From: Aquificales bacterium
Lineage (GTDB): Bacteria; Aquificota; Aquificia; Aquificales; Aquificaceae
Reading direction: 5' to 3'
DNA length: 64,000 nt
Assembly: GCA_027037055.1 (NCBI GenBank)
Contig: JALWBR010000038.1
Span: 1-64,000, forward strand
Under the pieces are notes generated by a model. That model saw nothing but the letters and a program-made list of their open reading frames with translations. It ran no database searches and was not told the DNA's origin. The translations under genes were made by a program, and so were the position numbers. Shown one piece after another: positions 48,219 through 60,468 of this stretch. How positions within the stretch are numbered: the first letter of the stretch is position 1; every line of letters begins with the position of its first letter.

Positions 48219-49799
48219 TTATCTCAGAAGCTGAAGCACCATTTGGGGTATGGCGTTCGCCTGAGCGAGCATTGCCATGCTTGCCTGCATCCTTACCTGC
48301 TGTTTTGTAAACTCTATCATCTCCTTAGCGAAGTCAACATTTCTTATAACATTTTCAGCTTCATTGGTGTTATCTTGAGCTACCTTTTGGTAATCTTGGA
48401 TAGCCTGCAGATTTAACATTACGGAACCTACATCCGCCCTCAGGCTGTCCACCTTCTTTATGGCAACATCAATCACTTTCATTGCAAGTTCTGCTCCTTG
48501 GTTGTCCGTTACATCTATGGAGTACAGGTTGAAGAGGCTTGCGGATACGGAAGTACCTGCAGCTATTGTATTACCACTAACATCTTGGAAAGTAAAGTCA
48601 TCAACGCCGTTGTGTTCAAATGTATAGGAGTTTTCACCCAGTATTGTGAGTTCTCCAACTTTTACGGCATACCCATCTGTATTTGTTCTATCAACAGTTC
48701 CTGAGGCGTCTTTTATAAATTTTGCAAGATCTACTGAGGTGGTGTTATCTGCTCCAAGTGTACCCGATAGGGAAACGTCAATAGCTATGGTTTCCCCGTT
48801 TTCCGTTTCAAGAACCAATCTTCCATCTTCCGCCCTTGCTGTTATACTTACACCGTTTGCTGAAGCTTCAGTGTTTATATCAGTTACTATCTGGTCAAGG
48901 GTTATAGTTGTGCTTGCTGAAGTTGTTGCAGAATAGGTAAGTGTAAAGTCGGGGGCTCCTGTTACATCCTTGTTTCCTACAAAGAATTCCAATGTAAGGG
49001 TTACAGTTCCTGTGGTTGACATAACAGTTATTGTTCCGAAGGTTTCATTCGCCTTGCTTACGTTTTTGGCGGATGCAGTTATTCCGAGGTCCCTAAGTGT
49101 GGTGTTGTTGTTGATATTGTTAGCAACGGTTGCAGCATCTATTAGCTCTTTACCGCTTCCGTATGATAGGACTGTAATCCCTTCAACTTTAACATATTCC
49201 GTATTTGCTGTTACTAAGAAGGTTCCGGTTGCTGAACTTAAGTCTGTAGATCCTGATATTGAGTTACCTTTACCAAATATTACATAAGCACCCAAATCCG
49301 TTGCCTTAACGGAGCTTATATTAACGCTTATTGTCTGTTCCGATCTCGCACCGTAGTGGATCACCTTGTTTTTGAATGTACCGTCAAGAAGATTTATTCC
49401 GTTATATTCCGTATCCGTTGCTATCTTCTGTATGGCATCAATCAGGTTTCTGATGTCAGCTTGGAGGGCACTTCTTGCGTTGGGGTCATTTATGTCGTTG
49501 GCTGCGCTTTGAGCTTTTGTGTACATGGTCTTCAGTTTGTCATAGATCTGGGATATACCGCCTTCCGCAATTTGGAGTGCGGATATGCCCGTCTGGATGT
49601 TCCTGTTACCCTGTTCCAGTGCGGATCCTACCAAAGAGAGCTGGTCTGCTATGAAAAGACCCGCAGCATCGTCCGCCGCTGACAGAATCCTGTAACCCGT
49701 GGATAATCTCAGGAGAGATTTGTTCATTGATCTCTCCGTGTTAACAAGGGCTGTGTGGCTGGCCGCCGCCTGGTAGTTAAAATTAATTCTGAGCGCCAT
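48219..49799 (-). CDS. fliC: Flagellin
   Basis: 526 residues. The conserved D0/D1 ends are present: N-terminal 'LRINFNYQAAASHTALVNTE', 'RLSTGYRILSAADDAAGLFI' and 'ALQIAEGGISQIYDKLKTMY'; C-terminal 'NVDFAKEMIEFTKQQVRMQA' and 'SMAMLAQANAIPQMVLQLLR'. The middle (~170-430) is a Thr/Ser/Val-rich variable surface domain. It polymerises into the filament. A strong AAGGAGGTG Shine-Dalgarno and a sigma-28-like promoter lie upstream, a terminator downstream. Confidence 0.98.
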   Translation of the reverse strand: MALRINFNYQAAASHTALVNTERSMNKSLLRLSTGYRILSAADDAAGLFIADQLSLVGSALEQGNRNIQTGISALQIAEGGISQIYDKLKTMYTKAQSAANDINDPNARSALQADIRNLIDAIQKIATDTEYNGINLLDGTFKNKVIHYGARSEQTISVNISSVKATDLGAYVIFGKGNSISGSTDLSSATGTFLVTANTEYVKVEGITVLSYGSGKELIDAATVANNINNNTTLRDLGITASAKNVSKANETFGTITVMSTTGTVTLTLEFFVGNKDVTGAPDFTLTYSATTSASTTITLDQIVTDINTEASANGVSITARAEDGRLVLETENGETIAIDVSLSGTLGADNTTSVDLAKFIKDASGTVDRTNTDGYAVKVGELTILGENSYTFEHNGVDDFTFQDVSGNTIAAGTSVSASLFNLYSIDVTDNQGAELAMKVIDVAIKKVDSLRADVGSVMLNLQAIQDYQKVAQDNTNEAENVIRNVDFAKEMIEFTKQQVRMQASMAMLAQANAIPQMVLQLLR

Positions 49800-50497: not shown

Positions 50498-51319
50498 CTC
50501 CTCCTCTTCTTCCTCTTCGCGGGGTATTCGTACTGGAATGACAACCATTTTATCCTTTGAAGGAATCAGTGCATACTGAATAAGGGGTCCAGCCATATTG
50601 TATAGGGCGGTGGGTATCCCCCTGCCCATGTATATGTGACCGAAACCCACTATTACAATTATCTTTTCATATTCCCCCGTCCATAAGTATCTGTATATAC
50701 TGTAAGCCATACCGTTATCCCAAGCCATCTGTATATCAAGGAAGGATTTTATGTTTTTTACCTTATGGCTTTCAAGTGCCTTAATGAGAAGTCTTTTATA
50801 AACTTCGTCAGGCTTTGTTATAACGGGGGGAAGATATTCGCTGTTTATATTTTCAAGCCCTTTCTTTCTTATTTCTCGGATCAGCTCTGTAGGAATGTTC
50901 ATTGCTATTACGGTTATTTCATTTTTTTTGGCAAATCTCCATATTCCTCTGTAAAAATCGGGATTATACTTCCACCTTTTTTTGTATTCTGTAAGCTCAA
51001 GCATTTTATCCTCATCTATCTCACACTCTATATACTGATCAAGATACTTTTGAAAGGGGGCTTGAAACATCTCCATGGCTATTGCTATGTATGGTTCCCT
51101 TTCGTATATTGCCTTTATAACTTTAAGCTGGAATTCATGTATTTCTTTATGGGTGTGGATCTCACCTATGTATATAACATCAGCTTTCATAAGCATATCT
51201 ATTAGCTTGTTAAAGGAAATGTACTCCTTTGAGGGATAATAATATATCTTTAACTCCTTGCCCCACACCACGGGGGTAATTAGCAAAATTAATAAGAGCC
51301 GTTTAAATTTTACAGTCAT
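50489..51319 (-). CDS. ChaN-like (DUF399) heme-binding/hydrolase-fold protein
   Basis: 276 residues with a signal peptide ('FKRLLLILLITPVVWG'). 'ADVIYIGEIHTHKEIHEFQL' and 'IAMEMFQAPFQKYLDQY', with 'VIVGFGHIYMGRGIPTALYN' near the C-terminus, are the conserved E-x-H, E-M-F and GxxH motifs of the ChaN/Tiki/EreA-like fold. ChaN of Campylobacter binds heme and is linked to iron uptake; the role here is unknown. It ends in a run of seven or eight acidic residues ('REEEEEEELL'). ATG 51319 lies inside the end of the upstream gene (17-bp overlap). Confidence 0.8.
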   Translation of the reverse strand: MTVKFKRLLLILLITPVVWGKELKIYYYPSKEYISFNKLIDMLMKADVIYIGEIHTHKEIHEFQLKVIKAIYEREPYIAIAMEMFQAPFQKYLDQYIECEIDEDKMLELTEYKKRWKYNPDFYRGIWRFAKKNEITVIAMNIPTELIREIRKKGLENINSEYLPPVITKPDEVYKRLLIKALESHKVKNIKSFLDIQMAWDNGMAYSIYRYLWTGEYEKIIVIVGFGHIYMGRGIPTALYNMAGPLIQYALIPSKDKMVVIPVRIPREEEEEEELL

Positions 51320-53774
51320 CAATTAACCTCTTTACATCCTCTCTGACCTTTTCGGTAATTTCGTCATATCCTTTACTATCTGGGTAAACTGGGTGTCCTA
51401 ATACTATTTTTATTTTCTTAGGTCTGGGTATTTTGTGTTTAACGGACATTACTTCAAAGGTACCGCATATTGCCACTGGTACAATGGGAACATTAAGCTC
51501 TTTGCTGAGTATGGCAAATCCCTTTTTGAAAGGTAATAGCTGTCCGTCTCTTGTTCTTGCACCTTCTGGAAATATAACTATTATCTTACCCAACCTTAAT
51601 ACCCACGATGCCTTTTGAAGGGATTCCCTTATTCCCTTTTGTACATTTACCGTTATAACATGGGCTAACTTGCCAAATGTTGATGTAAAGGGATTGCTGA
51701 AATAGGTTTCCTCTCCGAGGAAAAATGTATCTTTTGCTATTTCTTCTGGGAGGAGTGCGGACAATACAAAGGAGTCTATGTAGCTTGCATGATTGGGCGC
51801 CAATATAAAGGGTTTATCGGGCAGTTTTACATCCGGTGGTATTACAATTTCCGCCCTGTTGTATAGGATAAAAAACAGTTTAAGGATTTTTCTTCCGAGC
51901 CAGAATATGAAGGGGTAGTCTTTCAGAGGAGGTATTTCTGCATCTTTTAATATTTCCTTCCAGTTTACCGAAGTCGGCTCTTCTTTTATTTTTTTAGTTT
52001 CTATAAGATTTAAAAGGGAAGCGACGGTCATATATTTAGCCAATTCTTCCTCTTTTATCTCAACACCGAAGGTCTTTTCTATAAAGGTTTGTAGCTCTAC
52101 CTTACCCAAGGAATCCAAGCCGAGGTCAACCTCAATATGATCCTCCGGATACACCTCTTTACCCGTCAGCTTTTCAAGGAATTCCTTAAGTTTCTTTCCT
52201 GCTGGGCTTTCTAATATTTTCTCCTCAGTCTTCTTAGGTTTGGAAACGGATGTTTCGGCGAACTCCTTGAGCATAAATCTCTTTAATTTACCAAGTCTTG
52301 TTTTGGGAAGCTCTCTGTTAACTATAGTTATACCTTGTATCCTTTTCCATTCTGGTAGCTTTCTGTTAAACCTATCTATTACCTCCCATTTTATATACTC
52401 GTGAATGTTTACAACACCGAGTTCCCTTAGCTTTTCAAAGTCAGGGTATATTATTGCGTGTAGAGTGTCGTTCTGTTCAACTATTCCTACCTCTTTTATT
52501 AAGCTTGAAGCCTTTAAAAGCTCTGTTTCTATCTCCTCTGGGTTTATGTTCTTACCCGAACTAAGTACTATGATATCCTTTTTCCTCCCTGTAATGTAAA
52601 GATATCCCTCATTGTCCATGTATCCAAGATCACCCGTATAAAGCCATCCGTTTTTTATAACTTCCGCTGTTTCTTTTTCCTTCTTGTAGTAACCCTTCAT
52701 AACATTGGTTCCCCTAAGGAGAACTTCTCCCTCTTCGGAGATTCTTACCCTTACATCCCTTATGGGTATTCCTACAGAACCGAGCTTAATCCTATTTGGC
52801 GGATTTATGGTTGCTATAGGGGAGGTTTCCGTCAAGCCGTAGCCTTCTATGATGGTAAATCCGAGATCGCTCAGATCCTTGGCTATCTCTAAATCAAGTT
52901 TGGCGCCCCCGCTGACAAAATACTTTATATTACCTCCGAAGGCGTCGTGTACCTTTTTGAATACTAACCTTTTTATCTTTTTTGAGGGAATGGGTCTTAG
53001 AATTCTAAATATAGTTTTAGCCACCGGATTTTTATTTATCTCTTCAAATATTTTCCTGTGAAACAGGCGATAAAGCCTCGGTACTCCTATGAGTATTGTA
53101 ATTCTATATTTTTTAAGCTTTTCCATTATGTCTTCGGGTGTAAGCTTATCAAGGAATACTATTGTTGCACCTATGTAAAGGGGATATATCATGGATGTTA
53201 CCAAAGGGTAGGCGTGGTGAAAGGGCAATATGGCAAGGGTCCTGTCTTCCTTCGTTGCTACTTTAAAATCATCTATACCATATATGTTTGAGAGAATATT
53301 TTTGTATGTAAGCATAACACCCTTTGGTTTACCCGTGGTTCCCGATGTGTAGAGTATGAGGGCGGTATCATACTTTGACACATTTATGCTTTTTTCTGTT
53401 GGCTTGGGATAGAGGAAGTTATCAAAATTAACCGCATCAATTTTTATATCTCCTTCTTCTATAGCTTTAAACAGGGCGTCCTTGGTTGTGTCCGAATAGA
53501 ACACCATTTTCGGTGTGGCATCCTTGAGTATATACAAAATCTCTTCGGGTGAAGACATAAAGTCTATGGGTACGACAATCCCTGCCCTTTTAAGGGTGGC
53601 GAAAAAGGCATACACCCACTCGGGTCTGTTTTCCGATATTATCGCAACCCTATCCCCCGGTAATATATCAATTAGAGTATTCAGGCAGTTTATTCTGTTT
53701 ATAAGCTCCCTGTAACTTATATTTTCTCCCCCGTATATAAGGGCAGTTTTACTGTGATCTTCTATTTTTATCAT
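51303..53774 (-). CDS. Three-domain acyl ligase - acyl carrier protein - lysophospholipid acyltransferase
   Basis: 823 residues in one chain. Residues 1-500: AMP-forming ligase with P-loop 'ALILYTSGTTGKPKGVMLTY' (~140-157), 'GLTETSPIATINPP', 'YTGDLGYMDNEGYLYITGRK' and a closing 'KTRLGKLKR'. Residues ~520-600: acyl carrier protein with 'DLGLDSLGKVELQTF', phosphopantetheine Ser555. Residues ~620-823: PlsC-type acyltransferase with 'APNHASYIDSFV' (HX4D), 'FPEGARTRDGQLLPFKKG' and 'VPIVPVAI'. E. coli Aas joins ligase and acyltransferase but in another order and without its own ACP. A TATAAT ends 10 nt before the ATG. Confidence 0.9.
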   Translation of the reverse strand: MIKIEDHSKTALIYGGENISYRELINRINCLNTLIDILPGDRVAIISENRPEWVYAFFATLKRAGIVVPIDFMSSPEEILYILKDATPKMVFYSDTTKDALFKAIEEGDIKIDAVNFDNFLYPKPTEKSINVSKYDTALILYTSGTTGKPKGVMLTYKNILSNIYGIDDFKVATKEDRTLAILPFHHAYPLVTSMIYPLYIGATIVFLDKLTPEDIMEKLKKYRITILIGVPRLYRLFHRKIFEEINKNPVAKTIFRILRPIPSKKIKRLVFKKVHDAFGGNIKYFVSGGAKLDLEIAKDLSDLGFTIIEGYGLTETSPIATINPPNRIKLGSVGIPIRDVRVRISEEGEVLLRGTNVMKGYYKKEKETAEVIKNGWLYTGDLGYMDNEGYLYITGRKKDIIVLSSGKNINPEEIETELLKASSLIKEVGIVEQNDTLHAIIYPDFEKLRELGVVNIHEYIKWEVIDRFNRKLPEWKRIQGITIVNRELPKTRLGKLKRFMLKEFAETSVSKPKKTEEKILESPAGKKLKEFLEKLTGKEVYPEDHIEVDLGLDSLGKVELQTFIEKTFGVEIKEEELAKYMTVASLLNLIETKKIKEEPTSVNWKEILKDAEIPPLKDYPFIFWLGRKILKLFFILYNRAEIVIPPDVKLPDKPFILAPNHASYIDSFVLSALLPEEIAKDTFFLGEETYFSNPFTSTFGKLAHVITVNVQKGIRESLQKASWVLRLGKIIVIFPEGARTRDGQLLPFKKGFAILSKELNVPIVPVAICGTFEVMSVKHKIPRPKKIKIVLGHPVYPDSKGYDEITEKVREDVKRLIDDCKI

Positions 53775-53785
53775 ACATTTAAGAA

Positions 53786-55843
53786 TTATATGAGTTTTTC
53801 AACGGGCATACCCAGGTAAAAGCCTTGTGCATAATTTATACCTATTTTCTTCAATATTTCAAGTGTTTCCTTATTTTCCACACATTCCGCTATTGTCTTT
53901 ATATTAAGTTTTGAACATAAAAACTGGATACTTTCAACAAAGGCGATATCTTTATCCCCTCCGAGATAAAGCTCCTTTATGAACTCCCCGTCTATCTTTA
54001 CAAAGGATGCGGGTATGTATTTAAGGTAGTAAAAGGAAGAGTATCCACTTCCGAAGTCATCAATGGCAAGTTTAAATCCTTTATTTGTAAGGTTTACCCT
54101 AATATCTTGAAGAACGAGCAAAACATCTACAGCCGTCTTTTCTGTAATTTCAAAAACAATTTCTTCAGGCTTTACTTTATACTCTTCAACGATATTAGCT
54201 ATGTACTCCATGAAATCCTTATCCTTTATTTCCCTTCCAGAAAGGTTTATAAATAGTAGTTTGTCAAAATTTGTTTCTACTTTCTGTTCAAGGGCTTTCC
54301 TTATTATTATCCTGTCAATGTCCCTTATGGTTCCCAATCTTTCCGCCATATCAATGAACCTGCTTGCACTTGCCACATACCCTTCATGGTCTATGAGCCT
54401 TGACAGAACTTCATATCCTATTACCGAGTGATTTTCAATGTTAAAGATGGGTTGGAAGAATGGCATTAGCTTACTTTCATCTATACTTCTGAGTATAAGT
54501 CTGTATTTTTCGTTTTGATTTTCAAGGGAGAATTTAATATTCTGCGGATCCAATATAATAACCATATTTTTACCCATATCTTTTGCCTTGTACATAGCCA
54601 AATCTGCGGCTCTTACAAGTTCTTTGCTTGTTGTACCGTGGGTAGGAAATTCAACTACTCCTATGGATGCCCTTATAGATATAAGGTTTCCATCAGGCAC
54701 CGCAACTTTTTTTTCATTAAAAGCCTTCAGTATCCTTTGAGCAACCTGCTTTGCTTTATCTATGGGTGTTTCACTGAGAATTACACCGAATTCATCACCG
54801 CCTATCCTCGCTACTATATCGCCTTCCCTGAGAACCTGTTTTAAAACGCTGGCTACTTCTTTTAAAAACAGATCACCTATATGATGCCCGTAAGCGTCAT
54901 TTACATATTTAAAATTATCAAGGTCTATCATCATGAGGGAGAATCTGTAGCCTTTCCTTTTTGCCCTTGTTATTTCGTAATTTAAGAAACTATCAAACAC
55001 TCTGCGGTTAAAGAGTTCGGTAAGGGCATCCCTTTCCGCCAAAAATTCAAGCTCGGATATTGCGGTACTTAACGCCTTGGAAGAGCCTATAATAAGGCTC
55101 ATTAGCGATATAATAAAATTCACCGCTTCCTCTTCCTTGGGTAGAAGGGGTTTCTCAATAAATTTACCTATTCCCAAAACTCCTCCCACATTAGGAAACT
55201 CGGGTAAGAACTCCCTGAACTTTATATATATCTCACCACTTTTAGGTACTTCCTCTCCACCTACATGTCTGTTTATCCACTTTACCTTTGTATTTTTTGT
55301 ATCTGTGAACATCCTTATTATCTTAAGAATCTCCTTCTTTACCGGTTTTATGTCTTTTATATCCGCAAAACACATGAGATGGACCTTCACCATATCTTCC
55401 GAAGGTTTGAAAATACCGAAGAAGAAGTGAAAATCAAAAATACTTCTGAGATCTCTTAAAATCTTTTCCGAGAATTTTTCCCAGTTATCAATATTGTCCT
55501 TTGAAAATATAATGTTCTTTATAAGATCATTTTCCTTTTGAAGTAGCTCCTTTTCTATATAACTATCCTTAAGCAATTTTAATATGAAAAGGGACTTTTT
55601 AAGTCCATCCCTTACCAGATCTATATTAGAAAGGGTTGTATCCTTTACATGATCAATAATCGTATCCATACCTTTTTCTAAGCAGATCTCAATATTGCCG
55701 TTACCTGATTCAAGACACTCTTTTAGGGTTATCTTAAATCCTTCAACTACGGAAATATCCCTTAGCATATTCTCAAGGGCTCTGCCGAATTTGTAGGATA
55801 TTTCCTCCTCAAGCTGTTCAAATCCCAAGTTACCGTTTTTCAT
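53786..55843 (-). CDS. Bifunctional GGDEF-EAL cyclic di-GMP protein with N-terminal sensor region
   Basis: 685 residues from ATG 55843 (GGAG 9 nt upstream; a TTG two codons earlier is possible). N-terminal ~270 residues: helical bundle then a GAF-like segment with no ligand residues I can name. GGDEF domain: intact 'ARIGGDEFGVIL' at 348-352. EAL domain: 'EVLSR' at 478-480 in place of EAL, but the metal and catalytic residues remain ('FINLSG', 'VFEITEKT', 'AIDDFGSGYSS', 'VKIDG', 'AECVEN', 'AQGFYLG'). Both activities may be functional. No membrane helix, so cytoplasmic. Confidence 0.93.
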   Translation of the reverse strand: MKNGNLGFEQLEEEISYKFGRALENMLRDISVVEGFKITLKECLESGNGNIEICLEKGMDTIIDHVKDTTLSNIDLVRDGLKKSLFILKLLKDSYIEKELLQKENDLIKNIIFSKDNIDNWEKFSEKILRDLRSIFDFHFFFGIFKPSEDMVKVHLMCFADIKDIKPVKKEILKIIRMFTDTKNTKVKWINRHVGGEEVPKSGEIYIKFREFLPEFPNVGGVLGIGKFIEKPLLPKEEEAVNFIISLMSLIIGSSKALSTAISELEFLAERDALTELFNRRVFDSFLNYEITRAKRKGYRFSLMMIDLDNFKYVNDAYGHHIGDLFLKEVASVLKQVLREGDIVARIGGDEFGVILSETPIDKAKQVAQRILKAFNEKKVAVPDGNLISIRASIGVVEFPTHGTTSKELVRAADLAMYKAKDMGKNMVIILDPQNIKFSLENQNEKYRLILRSIDESKLMPFFQPIFNIENHSVIGYEVLSRLIDHEGYVASASRFIDMAERLGTIRDIDRIIIRKALEQKVETNFDKLLFINLSGREIKDKDFMEYIANIVEEYKVKPEEIVFEITEKTAVDVLLVLQDIRVNLTNKGFKLAIDDFGSGYSSFYYLKYIPASFVKIDGEFIKELYLGGDKDIAFVESIQFLCSKLNIKTIAECVENKETLEILKKIGINYAQGFYLGMPVEKLI

Positions 55844-55876
55844 ATCCAAGCTCCGCTACCCGCGAGGTACTTCCTT

Positions 55877-57046
55877 TTATAATTTATCTTCAAGAAAGGC
55901 AAAGACAATGATAAACCAGAGAATACCCACCCCTATGTTTGTTATAAGCATAAGGCTTACGCCGTATTTTAGGGCTAAACCACCCGCCATACTTCCTACA
56001 AATGCTCCTATAAACTGGCTCGTGTTATAAATACCTGTGGAGAGACCTCTTACATGTTGTGGTGAAAACTTTGAGAGTAAAGAAGGGAGAACCGGTTCAA
56101 GCATGTGAAATCCTATCAAAAACAGGATTATGGTTGCCACCGCTGATATTAATGTTTCCGTAAAAAGGTAGGGTAGCGCGGAAAGGGACAGTACCCCTAT
56201 TCCTATTATTATTGCTTCCTTTAGTTTTTTCCTTTTTTCAGCCCATATTGTAAAAGGTACCATTATAAATATGGAGATTAGTATGGCGGGCAGGTATATC
56301 TCCCAATGCTTTCCTTTTGGCATACTGTGTTTATCTATAAGCTCTATGGGCATTACAACGAATATGCCTACCAATAGTATTCTTTCCAGTAAGGTTGAAA
56401 GGTAGAGTATAAGCAATCTTTTATCCCTGAGAAGTAAACTTATATTCTTTAAAGATACATCTGTGTGATTGTAATGTTTTTCCGGCTCCGGTATTTGGAA
56501 AATAAGGTAAAGTAGAGCTATGAGGGAAAACAAGCCCGTAATAAGGAATATAAAGGGTACCCCGAATTTGCCAGCAAGTAGGGGAGCTATGGTGAGGCTT
56601 ATGCCAAAGGCAAGCCCTATGGTTGAACCTATGAGTGCAAAGGCTCTTGTCCTCGTCTCTTCTTTTGTCAGATCAGCAGCAAGAGCCACCGCGGTTGATG
56701 ATATGGCACCCATACCTTGTATAGTTCTTCCGAGAATGAGTAGCAATATATCCTTTGCCCAAGCTCCTATGAAGCTTCCGATAGCATAAACTATCAATCC
56801 TATACCTATTATTATTTTCCTGCCGTATTTATCAGAAAGGTGTCCGAGCGGTATCTGAAATATAGCCTGTGTAAGACCGTATATGCCTACAGCCAGACCT
56901 ACGAGTATGGGGGAACTTCCCTCCATATCCTTGGCATAAGGGGCGAGGACCGGTAACAACAGAAAAAGGCCCAACATCCTTATGACAGAAATAAGTGATA
57001 TGCCTAAGATGACCTTTCTTTCTTCCTTTGAGAAGCCTTTGAACAT
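55877..57046 (-). CDS. Major facilitator superfamily transporter
   Basis: 389 residues with twelve hydrophobic helices. Motif A appears as 'GHLSDKYGRKIIIGIGLIVY', and 'LGRTIQGMGAISSTAVALAA' resembles drug:H+ antiporter DHA1 proteins such as YajR, but without the C-terminal ferredoxin-like extension of YajR. The substrate is unknown. It starts 3 bp after the stop of the GTPase gene, so it is probably the last gene of the conservon-like operon. Confidence 0.85.
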   Translation of the reverse strand: MFKGFSKEERKVILGISLISVIRMLGLFLLLPVLAPYAKDMEGSSPILVGLAVGIYGLTQAIFQIPLGHLSDKYGRKIIIGIGLIVYAIGSFIGAWAKDILLLILGRTIQGMGAISSTAVALAADLTKEETRTRAFALIGSTIGLAFGISLTIAPLLAGKFGVPFIFLITGLFSLIALLYLIFQIPEPEKHYNHTDVSLKNISLLLRDKRLLILYLSTLLERILLVGIFVVMPIELIDKHSMPKGKHWEIYLPAILISIFIMVPFTIWAEKRKKLKEAIIIGIGVLSLSALPYLFTETLISAVATIILFLIGFHMLEPVLPSLLSKFSPQHVRGLSTGIYNTSQFIGAFVGSMAGGLALKYGVSLMLITNIGVGILWFIIVFAFLEDKL

Positions 57047-57049
57047 TCG

Positions 57050-57598
57050 CTATTGAGACTCCAAATGTTTCTTAATTATATTCAGAAGGGTGAGTAGAAC
57101 ATTTTTTACACTCTCCTTATCTATGGCGGATACACCGACAACGGGAATACCTTCATCATCTTCTATATCAAGGGCTATCTTTACATCTTCTGGGGACCAT
57201 GCATCGGGTAAATCTTGTTTGTTTGCACCGACAACGGTGGGTACGGGAAACCTTGACTGGAAAAAGTTTATTATCTTCCTTGCCTCATGAAAGGAGGCGG
57301 GATCAGTGGAATCTACGAGTATTATAATTCCGAGGGCACCTTCACCCAATATCTCCCACATAAAATCAAATCTCGCCTGTCCGGGGGTGCCGAACAGGTA
57401 AAGTTCATGTTCATCATCTATCTTTATCTTTCCGAAATCCATGGCTACGGTTGTATGGTCTTTTATCTTACTTTCTTCCCCCCTCGTCTTTTTCTCCGTT
57501 GTAACCGTCTTTATCTCGCTTACCGTATTTATAAACTGTGTTTTACCTGCAGCAAATAGACCGGAAATGACGATTTTTATCTTTTTTATTCCCTTCAT
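57050..57598 (-). CDS. Small Ras-like GTPase, conservon CvnD-like
   Basis: 182 residues. P-loop 'SGLFAAGKTQF' (residues 12-22), switch I 'DHTTVAMDFGKI', G3 'LYLFGTPGQARFDFMWEILG', G4 'GANKQDL' and G5 'VGVSAID'. The 'TTVAMDFG...LFGTPGQ.RF.FMW' pattern is that of the GTPases of Streptomyces conservons (CvnD) and the COG2229 group related to MglA. Its neighbours are a DUF4388 protein (4-bp overlap), a roadblock protein (the usual GAP/adaptor fold) and a coiled-coil membrane protein, so this is a signalling or polarity switch rather than a translation GTPase. Confidence 0.87.
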   Translation of the reverse strand: MKGIKKIKIVISGLFAAGKTQFINTVSEIKTVTTEKKTRGEESKIKDHTTVAMDFGKIKIDDEHELYLFGTPGQARFDFMWEILGEGALGIIILVDSTDPASFHEARKIINFFQSRFPVPTVVGANKQDLPDAWSPEDVKIALDIEDDEGIPVVGVSAIDKESVKNVLLTLLNIIKKHLESQ

Positions 57599-58287
57599 AA
57601 CACTTTTATCTTCTCAATAATCTTAGTCAGCAGATCAAGGGTTATGGATAGTTTGGGTTTAACCTCCCTTTTCTTCCTTCTTATAAACCCTGCCGCAAGC
57701 AAGCCGTACAACGCCCTTCCTACGGTGAGATCATCCATTTCCGCAATCCTTTTAATCTCTCCTACGGTTCTTTCACCGTCAACCAAGGATAGCACCTTTT
57801 CTTCTTCTGGTGTCAGTTTTACCTTGCCGAGCTTTTCCTCTACATCCGCGGAGGTTTCAAAGGTAAGCATCTCATCCGATATCTTTCTTTCTATTTCCTC
57901 CGGGGTGAGGGTCCTTGAAGCCCTCATTATAAGTTCTTCTATATGTATATATACGGGTACATCCGAATCATACTTTATAAATCCGAGGGTAAAAGAGAAT
58001 ATACCCTCCCTGTTGTTTAATCTCGGCAAAAAGAATTTTTCAATGGTTTTATATAGTTTATCTTTTGATATTCTTAATTTATTAAGCAGAGAATCAAAAT
58101 GCCTTTCCGCGTAAACCCTGTAAACCTTATCAACGGGTCTTGCGAAGACAAGCTCTCCGTCTTTGACATAATAAGCTACCGTCATATCTTTCCATTCAAC
58201 CATAAGTATTCCACTTTTTCTGTCCCTTGCTATAACCTGAAATATATCAACAAAGTTAAAGGTTGACAGGTCTCCCGTTAGCGCCAT
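57595..58287 (-). CDS. DUF4388 (PATAN-like) protein of the GTPase module
   Basis: 230 residues. The N-terminal ~100 residues begin 'MALTGDLSTFNFVDIFQVIA' and 'RDRKSGILMVEW', the signature opening of DUF4388/PATAN domains often fused to regulators of surface motility and GTPase systems. The C-terminus has a winged-helix-like segment 'LSLVDGERTVGEIKRIAEMD' and 'LTVGRALYGLLAAGFIRRK'. No enzymatic motif. It overlaps the GTPase gene by 4 bp and directly follows the roadblock gene. Confidence 0.8.
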   Translation of the reverse strand: MALTGDLSTFNFVDIFQVIARDRKSGILMVEWKDMTVAYYVKDGELVFARPVDKVYRVYAERHFDSLLNKLRISKDKLYKTIEKFFLPRLNNREGIFSFTLGFIKYDSDVPVYIHIEELIMRASRTLTPEEIERKISDEMLTFETSADVEEKLGKVKLTPEEEKVLSLVDGERTVGEIKRIAEMDDLTVGRALYGLLAAGFIRRKKREVKPKLSITLDLLTKIIEKIKVL

Positions 58288-58647
58288 TTAAAGCTCCATC
58301 ACCTTCCTTAAATTCTCCTGGGATCTCCTTATTTCCATAAGAAGCAATCCGAGTTTAACATTGTTGTCCGCGAGAACGGTAAGTACCGCTTCTTGTCCTA
58401 TCCCTGTGAGTATCACATATCCGGTATCTCCCTTTATCGTTATTTGTTCCAGTGTTCCCTTCTCCAATTCCTCAGCAACTCGTTCTCCGAGGGAAAGGAT
58501 TGCTGCGCTCATTGCCGCTATCCTATCTTCCTCAAAACCTGCACCGAGGGCTGACGCTATAGGGAGGCCGTCAGAACTCACAAGCGCTGCACCTTCAATA
58601 CCCGCGTTTTTTATCAGCTCCTGTAATATGGCTGAATATTTATCCAT
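58288..58647 (-). CDS. Roadblock/LC7 domain protein (MglB/CvnB-like)
   Basis: 119 residues forming a single roadblock domain: 'LIKNAGIEGAALVSSDGLPI', 'ASALGAGFEEDRIAAMSAAI' and 'GYVILTGIGQEAVLTVLADN' with the family's alternating strand/helix pattern. Roadblock proteins dimerise and act as GAP or adaptor for small GTPases of the MglA/CvnD type; the GTPase gene lies two genes away. AAGGAGG precedes the ATG. Confidence 0.9.
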   Translation of the reverse strand: MDKYSAILQELIKNAGIEGAALVSSDGLPIASALGAGFEEDRIAAMSAAILSLGERVAEELEKGTLEQITIKGDTGYVILTGIGQEAVLTVLADNNVKLGLLLMEIRRSQENLRKVMEL

Positions 58648-58660
58648 AAATTAAACCTCC

Positions 58661-59374
58661 TTATATATCCTTAAAAAATTTTAAACTATTCTCAATCTTT
58701 TCTTCTTCATATTTAAGCCTTTCTATCCTCTTCTTGAGATTTTCCACATCCTCCCTGCTCAGCGATTCGCTTTGCTTAACGGTGCTTAGTATTTCATCAA
58801 CTTCCTTTCTCATAGTTTCTATTCCTTCCTTAAGCTCCTTTAACCTTTTTCTGTATGTTTTAAGGACCATATCTGTTACCTGACCGAGGGCGCCTATGGG
58901 ATCAAGCCCTTTGGGAAGATCAACATCGGTATAACCCTCAATGGATTTGGACAAACCTTCTATTGCCTTTGAGATATTATCCGCTATTATATCCAGTTGT
59001 TCTTCAAGCTCCTCCACTTCTTTGGAGAATTTGGTCTCAAGTGTTTTAAGTGTATCATTCACACTTTCAATGATATCCACAGTTTCCTCGGGAATGGGGA
59101 TGGGAACCTCTATATCCCTTTCCTTTTCTTCCATAAGCTCAATCGTGTAAAGCAACCTCCCGACTACTTGATTTATCTTTGCTTTTATATAAACATAGAA
59201 GCTCAGAGATAAAACGAGTACAAAGGTGTAACCGAATATGACGGAGCTTACGGGATCAACCTTGGCGCCGTAATGCAGGAAGAGAGATAGTCCCGTTCCG
59301 AAGAATATCAGTACGAGTACGGAATATTTTAATATCTCACTACCTAAGGATGTAAGTCTTTTAATTTCCAGCAT
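58661..59374 (-). CDS. Coiled-coil membrane protein of the GTPase module
   Basis: 237 residues. Two predicted membrane helices near the N-terminus (~15-33 and ~43-63), then about 170 residues of long charged helix with heptad character ('TLKTLETKFSKEVEELEEQL', 'KRLKELKEGIETMRKEVDEI', 'ENLKKRIERLKYEEEKIENS'). No enzymatic motif. As the first gene of the module it may anchor the roadblock/GTPase pair at the membrane, where conservons have a sensor kinase (CvnA); this role is inference. It overlaps hemW by 31 bp. Confidence 0.65.
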   Translation of the reverse strand: MLEIKRLTSLGSEILKYSVLVLIFFGTGLSLFLHYGAKVDPVSSVIFGYTFVLVLSLSFYVYIKAKINQVVGRLLYTIELMEEKERDIEVPIPIPEETVDIIESVNDTLKTLETKFSKEVEELEEQLDIIADNISKAIEGLSKSIEGYTDVDLPKGLDPIGALGQVTDMVLKTYRKRLKELKEGIETMRKEVDEILSTVKQSESLSREDVENLKKRIERLKYEEEKIENSLKFFKDI

Positions 59375-60468
59375 AATTCCTCCCTCGGAAGTTTATTATA
59401 GCACAGCAACTCCGAGAGGATTTCATCCGCTAATAATAAATATCTTTCCTTGATTGAAATGGTGGAGTCCGAAAATTCAAAAAACTCCTTAAGATGTTCG
59501 GGAATAAAAACCGAATCTTTGTTTATCCCTCTCATAGTTCTGAGCCCCAGTATTATGTATTCGGTAAAAAGATCTTCCCGTTTAAGACCAACATAAACTT
59601 CAACTGGCTTTTCTCCCTTTTTTAATCTTTCCACATATACATTAATATTTCTTACATTACTCCACCTCTTGTTATCGGCGTAACTCCATGCGGAAACACC
59701 TATTCCCAAAAATTCCCCGCCTGTCCAGTACATGAGGTTGTGCTTGCATATATATCCATCCTTAGCCCAATTGGATATCTCGTATCTTCTGAAACCCGCT
59801 TCCCTTAACCTCTCTGTAAGTAAATTATGCATTTCCACCAATTCATCCTCGTTCCTTTTAAAATCCTTGTAAATATGGAAGAAGGGAGTATCTTTGTAAA
59901 AGGTTAAAAGGTATGCGGACAAATGTTTTAAGGGCAGGGTGATAAGTATATCTATATCCTTCTCTAAGTCTTTGGCGGTTTGATGAGGATATCCGAAAAT
60001 AATATCCGCGTTTATATTTTCTATACCCGTCTTAAAGGCATCATCCACCCCTTTTATTGCGTGCAAGGGTGTGTGTTTCCTTCCGAGGATGTAAAGGCCT
60101 CGGGGAGAAAAGGTTTGGATCCCGAAACTTATCCTGTTAATTCCTATATCCTTCAGATAGACAAAGTCATCTTTTGTGTAATCTTCTGGGTTGCATTCTA
60201 TGGATATTTCCTTAGGTATTCCCAGTTTTTTATATATATAGTTTAGAAGGGTGTCATAATACCTCGGTGAGATTATGCTCGGTGAACCACCACCTATATA
60301 CAGGGTTTTTATGTTAAATTCGTATTCCCCGAGGTAAATTTCTAATTCCTTTATCAGGTATCTTATATATTCGGAAATGTCATGATCCGATAACTTTACC
60401 GTATAAAAATCGCAGTAGGGACACTTTTCCCTGCAGAAAGGTATATGTATATAAATTCCTTCTATCAT
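59344..60468 (-). CDS. hemW: HemW-type radical SAM heme chaperone
   Basis: 374 residues. 'YIHIPFCREKCPYCDFYTVK' carries C12-x3-C16-x2-C19 followed by the Asp-Phe of HemW. 'TLYIGGGSPSIISP', 'SIECNPEDY', 'RISFGIQTFSPRGLYILGRK' and 'NADIIFGYPHQT' are family motifs. HemW differs from coproporphyrinogen III dehydrogenase HemN in lacking the N-terminal extension, as seen here, and acts as a heme-transfer chaperone. A GGAA-type ribosome binding site overlaps the rodA stop region. Confidence 0.9.
   Translation of the reverse strand: MIEGIYIHIPFCREKCPYCDFYTVKLSDHDISEYIRYLIKELEIYLGEYEFNIKTLYIGGGSPSIISPRYYDTLLNYIYKKLGIPKEISIECNPEDYTKDDFVYLKDIGINRISFGIQTFSPRGLYILGRKHTPLHAIKGVDDAFKTGIENINADIIFGYPHQTAKDLEKDIDILITLPLKHLSAYLLTFYKDTPFFHIYKDFKRNEDELVEMHNLLTERLREAGFRRYEISNWAKDGYICKHNLMYWTGGEFLGIGVSAWSYADNKRWSNVRNINVYVERLKKGEKPVEVYVGLKREDLFTEYIILGLRTMRGINKDSVFIPEHLKEFFEFSDSTISIKERYLLLADEILSELLCYNKLPREELCWKLKDLHP

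Follow-up and report, generated by a model that had tools for sequence, protein, structure and literature searches.

Four consecutive genes in the genome of an Aquificales bacterium encode a module that, judged from its sequence, is a relative of the actinomycete conservons and not a member of them. The genes lie on the minus strand at 57050-59374 of the window, which is the whole 64,000-nucleotide stretch of contig JALWBR010000038.1 that was analyzed. They encode a two-TM membrane coiled-coil protein (COIL), a roadblock protein (ROBL), a DUF4388 protein with a winged helix (PATAN-wHTH; we take PATAN to be the DUF4388 domain), and a small GTPase. We propose with moderate confidence that these proteins make up a membrane-coupled Ras-like switch, in which the roadblock protein would act as the GAP, the DUF4388 protein as a GEF-like adaptor, and the coiled-coil protein as an anchor or sensor.

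All of the open reading frames were verified, with Pfam matches for the roadblock, DUF4388, and GTPase proteins, and the succession of coiled coil, roadblock, DUF4388, and small GTPase described in the earlier note stands (Table 1). The four genes are tightly packed. COIL and ROBL are separated by 13 bp, ROBL and the DUF4388 gene by 0 bp, and the DUF4388 and GTPase genes overlap by 4 bp. At the two ends, there is a 31-bp overlap between hemW and the COIL gene, and 3 bp separate the GTPase stop from the MFS gene. The MFS and GGDEF-EAL genes do follow in the same direction, as had been noted, and both have Pfam matches. Scans for promoters and terminators gave counts near the chance level. Farther along in the window there is a gene for an 823-aa fusion of an AMP-dependent ligase, an acyl carrier domain, and an acyltransferase (51303-53774, downstream of the GGDEF-EAL gene), and a flagellin gene in the same orientation lies about 7 kb beyond the module's downstream end (48219-49799). 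The genome itself (1.67 Mb, 54 contigs, 99.96% complete) contains a single DUF4388 gene. Of its two roadblock genes, the second is part of a canonical MglB-MglA pair at C24. A lone MglA-like GTPase is encoded at C25.

Table 1. Genes of the module and its immediate neighbors, with coordinates in the window.
Feature	Coordinates	Strand	Evidence and assignment
COIL, two-TM membrane protein of 237 aa, long cytoplasmic helices	58661..59374	-	proposed anchor/sensor
ROBL, 119-aa roadblock/LC7 protein, MglB/CvnB-like	58288..58647	-	Robl_LC7 E=2.2e-20; proposed GAP
PATAN-wHTH, 230-aa DUF4388/PATAN + winged helix + terminal helix	57595..58287	-	DUF4388 E=3e-19; proposed GEF-like adaptor
GTPase, 182-aa MglA-family small GTPase	57050..57598	-	Pfam, motifs, tree, orthologues
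MFS transporter	55877..57046	-	MFS_1 E=8e-55; probably outside core
GGDEF-EAL protein, GGDEF motif intact	53786..55849	-	GGDEF E=2e-49, EAL E=3e-59; probably outside core
HemW, upstream gene	59344..60468	-	TIGR00539 E=1e-78; outside module

The cluster is not a chance arrangement, since dozens of genomes have the orthologous genes in this order. GTPase orthologues (62-100% identity) occur in 91 of 136 Aquificota genomes (G083, with a paralogue only, was left out of this count, and the G093 orthologue is in two pieces). Counted by identity and E-value, the GTPase and roadblock orthologues are concordant in 131/136 genomes (89 with both, 42 with neither), a figure that includes related genomes and does not stand for independent events. 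The five discordant genomes (G042, G048, G050, G069, and G083) are 65-90% complete. In 44 Aquificota loci, the DUF4388 gene is located immediately before the GTPase gene in every case (44/44), and the roadblock gene precedes the DUF4388 gene in 34/44. The earlier note had made its proposal depend on conservation of the order outside close relatives. This is what we find: the four-gene order occurs in four genera of one Aquificales family, and the ROBL-PATAN-GTPase core is constant in two families. In a third family (f3) the roadblock gene is unlinked, and its orthologue is still present in the genome (57-62% identical); genomes of this family are among those in which GTPase and roadblock agree. 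The genes upstream vary by genus (HemW/FtsW, acetolactate synthase subunit-like genes, an ArsP-type permease, or a 2TM-HAMP protein with a 300-aa protein). That the trio persists through these changes marks it as a functional unit. HemW, whose place is taken by other genes in other genera, is not counted as part of the module. Of the downstream neighbors, MFS is linked in two genera only and GGDEF-EAL in the own genus only; both are lineage-specific and probably not core. A second Aquificota module (L106-L108, L113, L115, L117, L119-L121) is composed of a paralogous GTPase, a roadblock protein, and usually a 77-aa small protein. A GGDEF-EAL gene follows it in L113 and L120.

Outside the Aquificota, DUF4388-GTPase pairs recur in Chloroflexota (GTPase identity 54-60%), Thermus, and Deinococcus. 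In many Anaerolineae the Chloroflexota pair is followed by genes for alpha/beta hydrolase-like, often V4R-like, and hexapeptide-repeat proteins (e.g. L037:6759-9473). Plasmids of Thermus and Deinococcus (L128-L130) carry the same three families in the order DUF4388-GTPase-roadblock. They differ from the window module in having the roadblock gene after the GTPase gene, TRQD as the G4 motif, and no COIL-type neighbor. The first gene of the Deinococcus plasmid has a weak DUF4388 match, and the three plasmid proteins together match DUF4388 proteins in a profile comparison (97%). In Thermus a protoglobin gene follows, and the resulting DUF4388-GTPase-roadblock-protoglobin operon on a Thermus thermophilus plasmid (L129:4345-6474) hints at a possible gas-sensing link.

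The GTPase matches the Ras and Arf families in Pfam (E about 1e-11 to 5e-12), and its closest named matches, 98% identical, are in 'Aquificales bacterium' MAGs. The five G motifs are intact (G1 GLFAAGKT, G2 TTVAMDFG, G3 GTPGQ, G4 NKQD, G5 SA). We built a GTPase tree whose references were CvnD (Group 2; nine conservon references, all from actinobacterial plasmids) and the own genome's Group 1-like GTPases only. In this tree, the window GTPase clusters with sequences from Aquificota and Chloroflexota (95/85), and the next branch is Deinococcota, including the plasmid GTPases (94/88). The CvnD references form a separate clade (100/99). Five groups of MglA proteins have been described, of which Groups 2-5 have GTPGQ, no Arg in G2, and an Asp-Gly pair in their roadblock partners (Wuichet and Sogaard-Andersen 2014, PMC4316618). 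According to that paper, which cites Makarova et al. 2006, Groups 1 and 5 are present in Aquificae and some of their genes are near PATAN genes. By its motifs the window GTPase fits Group 5, as it has a Thr and not an Arg in G2, GTPGQ in G3, a canonical [NT]KxD motif in G4, and a coupled roadblock protein with an Asp-Gly pair. These Group 5 traits, including the adjoining PATAN gene and the occurrence in Aquificae and Deinococcus/Thermus, are already known from PMC4316618. Compared with the Group 5 description in the accessible part of that source, the window module adds a two-TM coiled-coil gene and, in the PATAN protein, a C-terminal half like DUF742. The pairing of a small GTPase with a roadblock GAP, here a proposed one, is also that of MglAB (Group 1; Myxococcus, Thermus). 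Unlike MglAB, the window GTPase has no Arg beside the G2 Thr; the own genome's separate MglB-MglA pair (L003) carries this Arg.

COIL has two predicted TM helices (residues 14-32 and 39-57), followed by long helices. The AlphaFold2 model (pLDDT 66) has helices at 2-35, 41-86, 96-148, 159-201, and 207-236. A conserved P-x-GLDPxGAxG motif lies between helices, and residues P154, G156-D158, G161, A162, and G164 are invariant in the alignment. The gene was found in 29 genomes from four genera of one family. It is beside the roadblock gene in 29/29, always within about 120 bp upstream of it. COIL is present in 29 genomes as against 91 with the GTPase and is absent from most Aquificota with the core; the putative tether is therefore not essential to the core. 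Profile searches gave no kinase match for COIL among the best 25 of 36 Pfam matches listed, and hhalign gave no signal between COIL and CvnA. In family f2 (L094, L096-L102, e.g. L098:5191-5580), a 122-134 aa protein with two TM helices and a HAMP domain (PF00672 E=3e-11) but no kinase is encoded upstream of the module. In its layout (two TM helices, helix, short gap, helix), COIL is similar to these proteins. COIL as a degenerate HAMP protein was rejected, with an hhalign value of 0.5% against the f2 HAMP proteins and no HAMP among the best 25 of 36 Pfam matches. The 300-aa protein of f2 (f22) was considered as a second roadblock protein and rejected (2.3%). This protein, encoded upstream of the f2 roadblock gene (L097:5789-6757, L098:5595-6746), and the product of the gene after the own MglB-MglA pair (L003:2043-3194, at C24) have in common a C-terminal domain of ~76 residues ('IGPxGxFIxxKKL'; hhalign 97.2%, E=3e-11), for which no Pfam match was found.

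The DUF4388 protein is built of three parts: the DUF4388/PATAN domain (residues 4-128; 69.7 bits against a cut-off of 25), a winged helix (about 157-204) with TrmB and MarR profile matches, and, after a variable linker, a terminal helix (217-229). The C-terminal arrangement is seen in the alignment of DUF4388 proteins and in the AlphaFold2 model (pLDDT 89.7), which was folded from an alignment without the plasmid sequences. Compared by hhalign, the C-terminal half resembles DUF742 (92.6%, E=4.7e-7, 73 columns). The resemblance is also found with Aquificota sequences alone (E=4e-6) and with Chloroflexota sequences alone (9e-4). No DUF742 match was found in the own genome. The comparison score is 42-48, against at most 19 for 60 column-shuffled DUF742 profiles and 13 for the reversed profile. 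Other winged helices scored 19-21 (ArsR) and 30 (TrmB), and these controls are rough, with a few wrongly extracted short rows in the ArsR set and n=6 sequences in the TrmB set. When the terminal helix is removed, the DUF742 score falls to 30, which is the TrmB level and counts against the proposed switch. The winged helix alone is thus generic, and the excess signal lies in the shared terminal helix. Common descent of this C-terminal half and DUF742 is likely, though not proven. Given the limited literature coverage, we regard this resemblance provisionally as new. It bears on function, as MfpC, a DUF742 homologue, is in published work the likely GEF of MfpB (PMC13343842; PMC13015309). A fold search with the model against solved structures returned nothing at E<=0.001, which also counts against the proposed switch. 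Among the weak, non-significant matches, FAM91A1 and a GATOR1-KICSTOR chain have high probability over ~70-80 columns, probably the winged helix. Some of these non-significant matches, which also take in chains of GATOR1-KICSTOR and SEA complexes, span the whole query at low probability.

The roadblock protein matches Robl_LC7 with 72.6 bits (cut-off 23), and its matches in the PDB include CvnB5 (3leq), MfpD (9hef), and MglB (6izw). It contains an Asp-Gly pair (SSDGLPIAS), and this DG motif is conserved. In MfpD the pair sits near the active site (PMC13015309). The GAP role has been shown for MfpD, a conservon roadblock protein, with MfpB (PMC9769811), and roadblock GAP activity is reported in two homologous systems, MglB and MfpD (PMC13015309, PMC9769811). 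In the switch that we propose, the GTPase would alternate between GTP and GDP forms, and a roadblock dimer would be its GAP. The DUF4388 protein would bind the GTPase and promote nucleotide exchange, with the binding surface in the portion common to CvnC and MfpC, namely the winged helix at the C-terminal side and the terminal helix. The N-terminal PATAN domain may dock the switch onto a target or input protein. Such docking has a precedent in Synechocystis, where the pilus motor PilB1 is bound by the PATAN-CheY protein PixE (cited in PMC9090330). The two-TM COIL would hold the complex at the inner membrane and relay a membrane signal, in the position where a conservon has its histidine kinase.

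The module shares with conservons (CvnABCD, Mfp) the order sensor-roadblock-third protein-GTPase, with the roadblock gene second and the GTPase gene fourth. The earlier note placed the coiled-coil membrane protein in the kinase position and DUF4388 in the DUF742 position. Both placements were borne out, as the two-TM COIL precedes the roadblock protein and the C-terminal half of the DUF4388 protein has the DUF742 resemblance described above. Its claim that the switch regions match CvnD is correct for both switch regions, I (TTVAMDFG) and II (FGTPGQARF, matching FGTPGQxRF), but does not extend to the whole GTPase, which is outside the CvnD clade and has the canonical G4 NKQD and G5 SA where CvnD has NxFD and DAR. 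The name conservon could not be kept. The module is a conservon in layout only, because three defining features fail: there is no histidine kinase, the third gene is not a DUF742 gene and encodes an extra N-terminal DUF4388 domain, and the GTPase is not of the CvnD type. A true conservon might have moved into the Aquificales, with the kinase swapped for the coiled coil and CvnC for the DUF4388 protein. The equal positions of the last three genes, the common switch I and II sequences, and the winged helix and terminal helix of both third proteins would fit such a transfer. We nevertheless find it very improbable, since in the tree the window GTPase falls among proteins of Aquificota, Chloroflexota, and Deinococcota, apart from CvnD, since its G4 and G5 are not those of CvnD, and since the wide occurrence of orthologues in Aquificota argues for an old resident gene.

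Two further readings concern what the partners of the GTPase do. The DUF4388 protein could be a transcription regulator, with the winged helix binding DNA and the GTPase controlling gene expression. The TrmB/MarR profile matches agree with this, and such a role has been proposed for MglA systems of Group 3 that have a protein of the receiver-like plus winged-helix type (PMC4316618). The resemblance to DUF742 and the terminal helix common to both, however, point to a protein-binding winged helix, and the weak fold matches are to FAM91A1 and GATOR1-KICSTOR-type complexes and not to DNA-binding regulators. We therefore regard DNA binding as unlikely. Roadblock proteins can also serve as platforms. 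This counts for a reading in which the roadblock and DUF4388 proteins would not be GAP and GEF but a scaffold that localizes the GTPase as a polarity landmark. MglAB in Myxococcus is a precedent, and the DUF4388-GTPase pair stays together at loci that the roadblock gene has left. The GAP activity reported for the MglB and MfpD roadblocks and the Asp-Gly pair kept in ROBL speak against a pure scaffold, and we give it a low probability.

The likeliest output of the proposed GAP- and GEF-controlled switch would be a surface machine, e.g. type IV pili or a c-di-GMP-linked behavior, an assignment that we regard as somewhat doubtful. PilT is present in 134/136 Aquificota genomes, module-less ones included; because it is nearly universal, presence and absence give no link to pili. 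Flagella were rejected as a general function, as flagellin is missing from genus g4, which has the module, and present in genus g5, which does not have it.

Prokaryotic Ras-like switches are known mostly from Myxococcus and actinomycetes. The module described here would be an old, conserved version of such a switch in thermophilic Aquificales, in which the DUF4388 protein is linked by its sequence to the conservon protein for which a GEF role has been reported as likely. We tentatively suggest that CvnC (DUF742) may be a shortened relative of the PATAN-winged-helix C-terminal half. Conservons and the modules of Aquificota, Chloroflexota, and Deinococcota may then have branched from a single old switch (roadblock GAP, winged-helix GEF, and GTPase) in which the input part has been exchanged: a histidine kinase in actinomycetes, a coiled coil in Aquificaceae, and possibly a kinase-less HAMP protein in a second Aquificales family. 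Through the link to DUF742, a biochemical role of DUF4388 proteins becomes open to testing, and the thermophile proteins are on offer for structures of the whole GTPase-GAP-GEF set.
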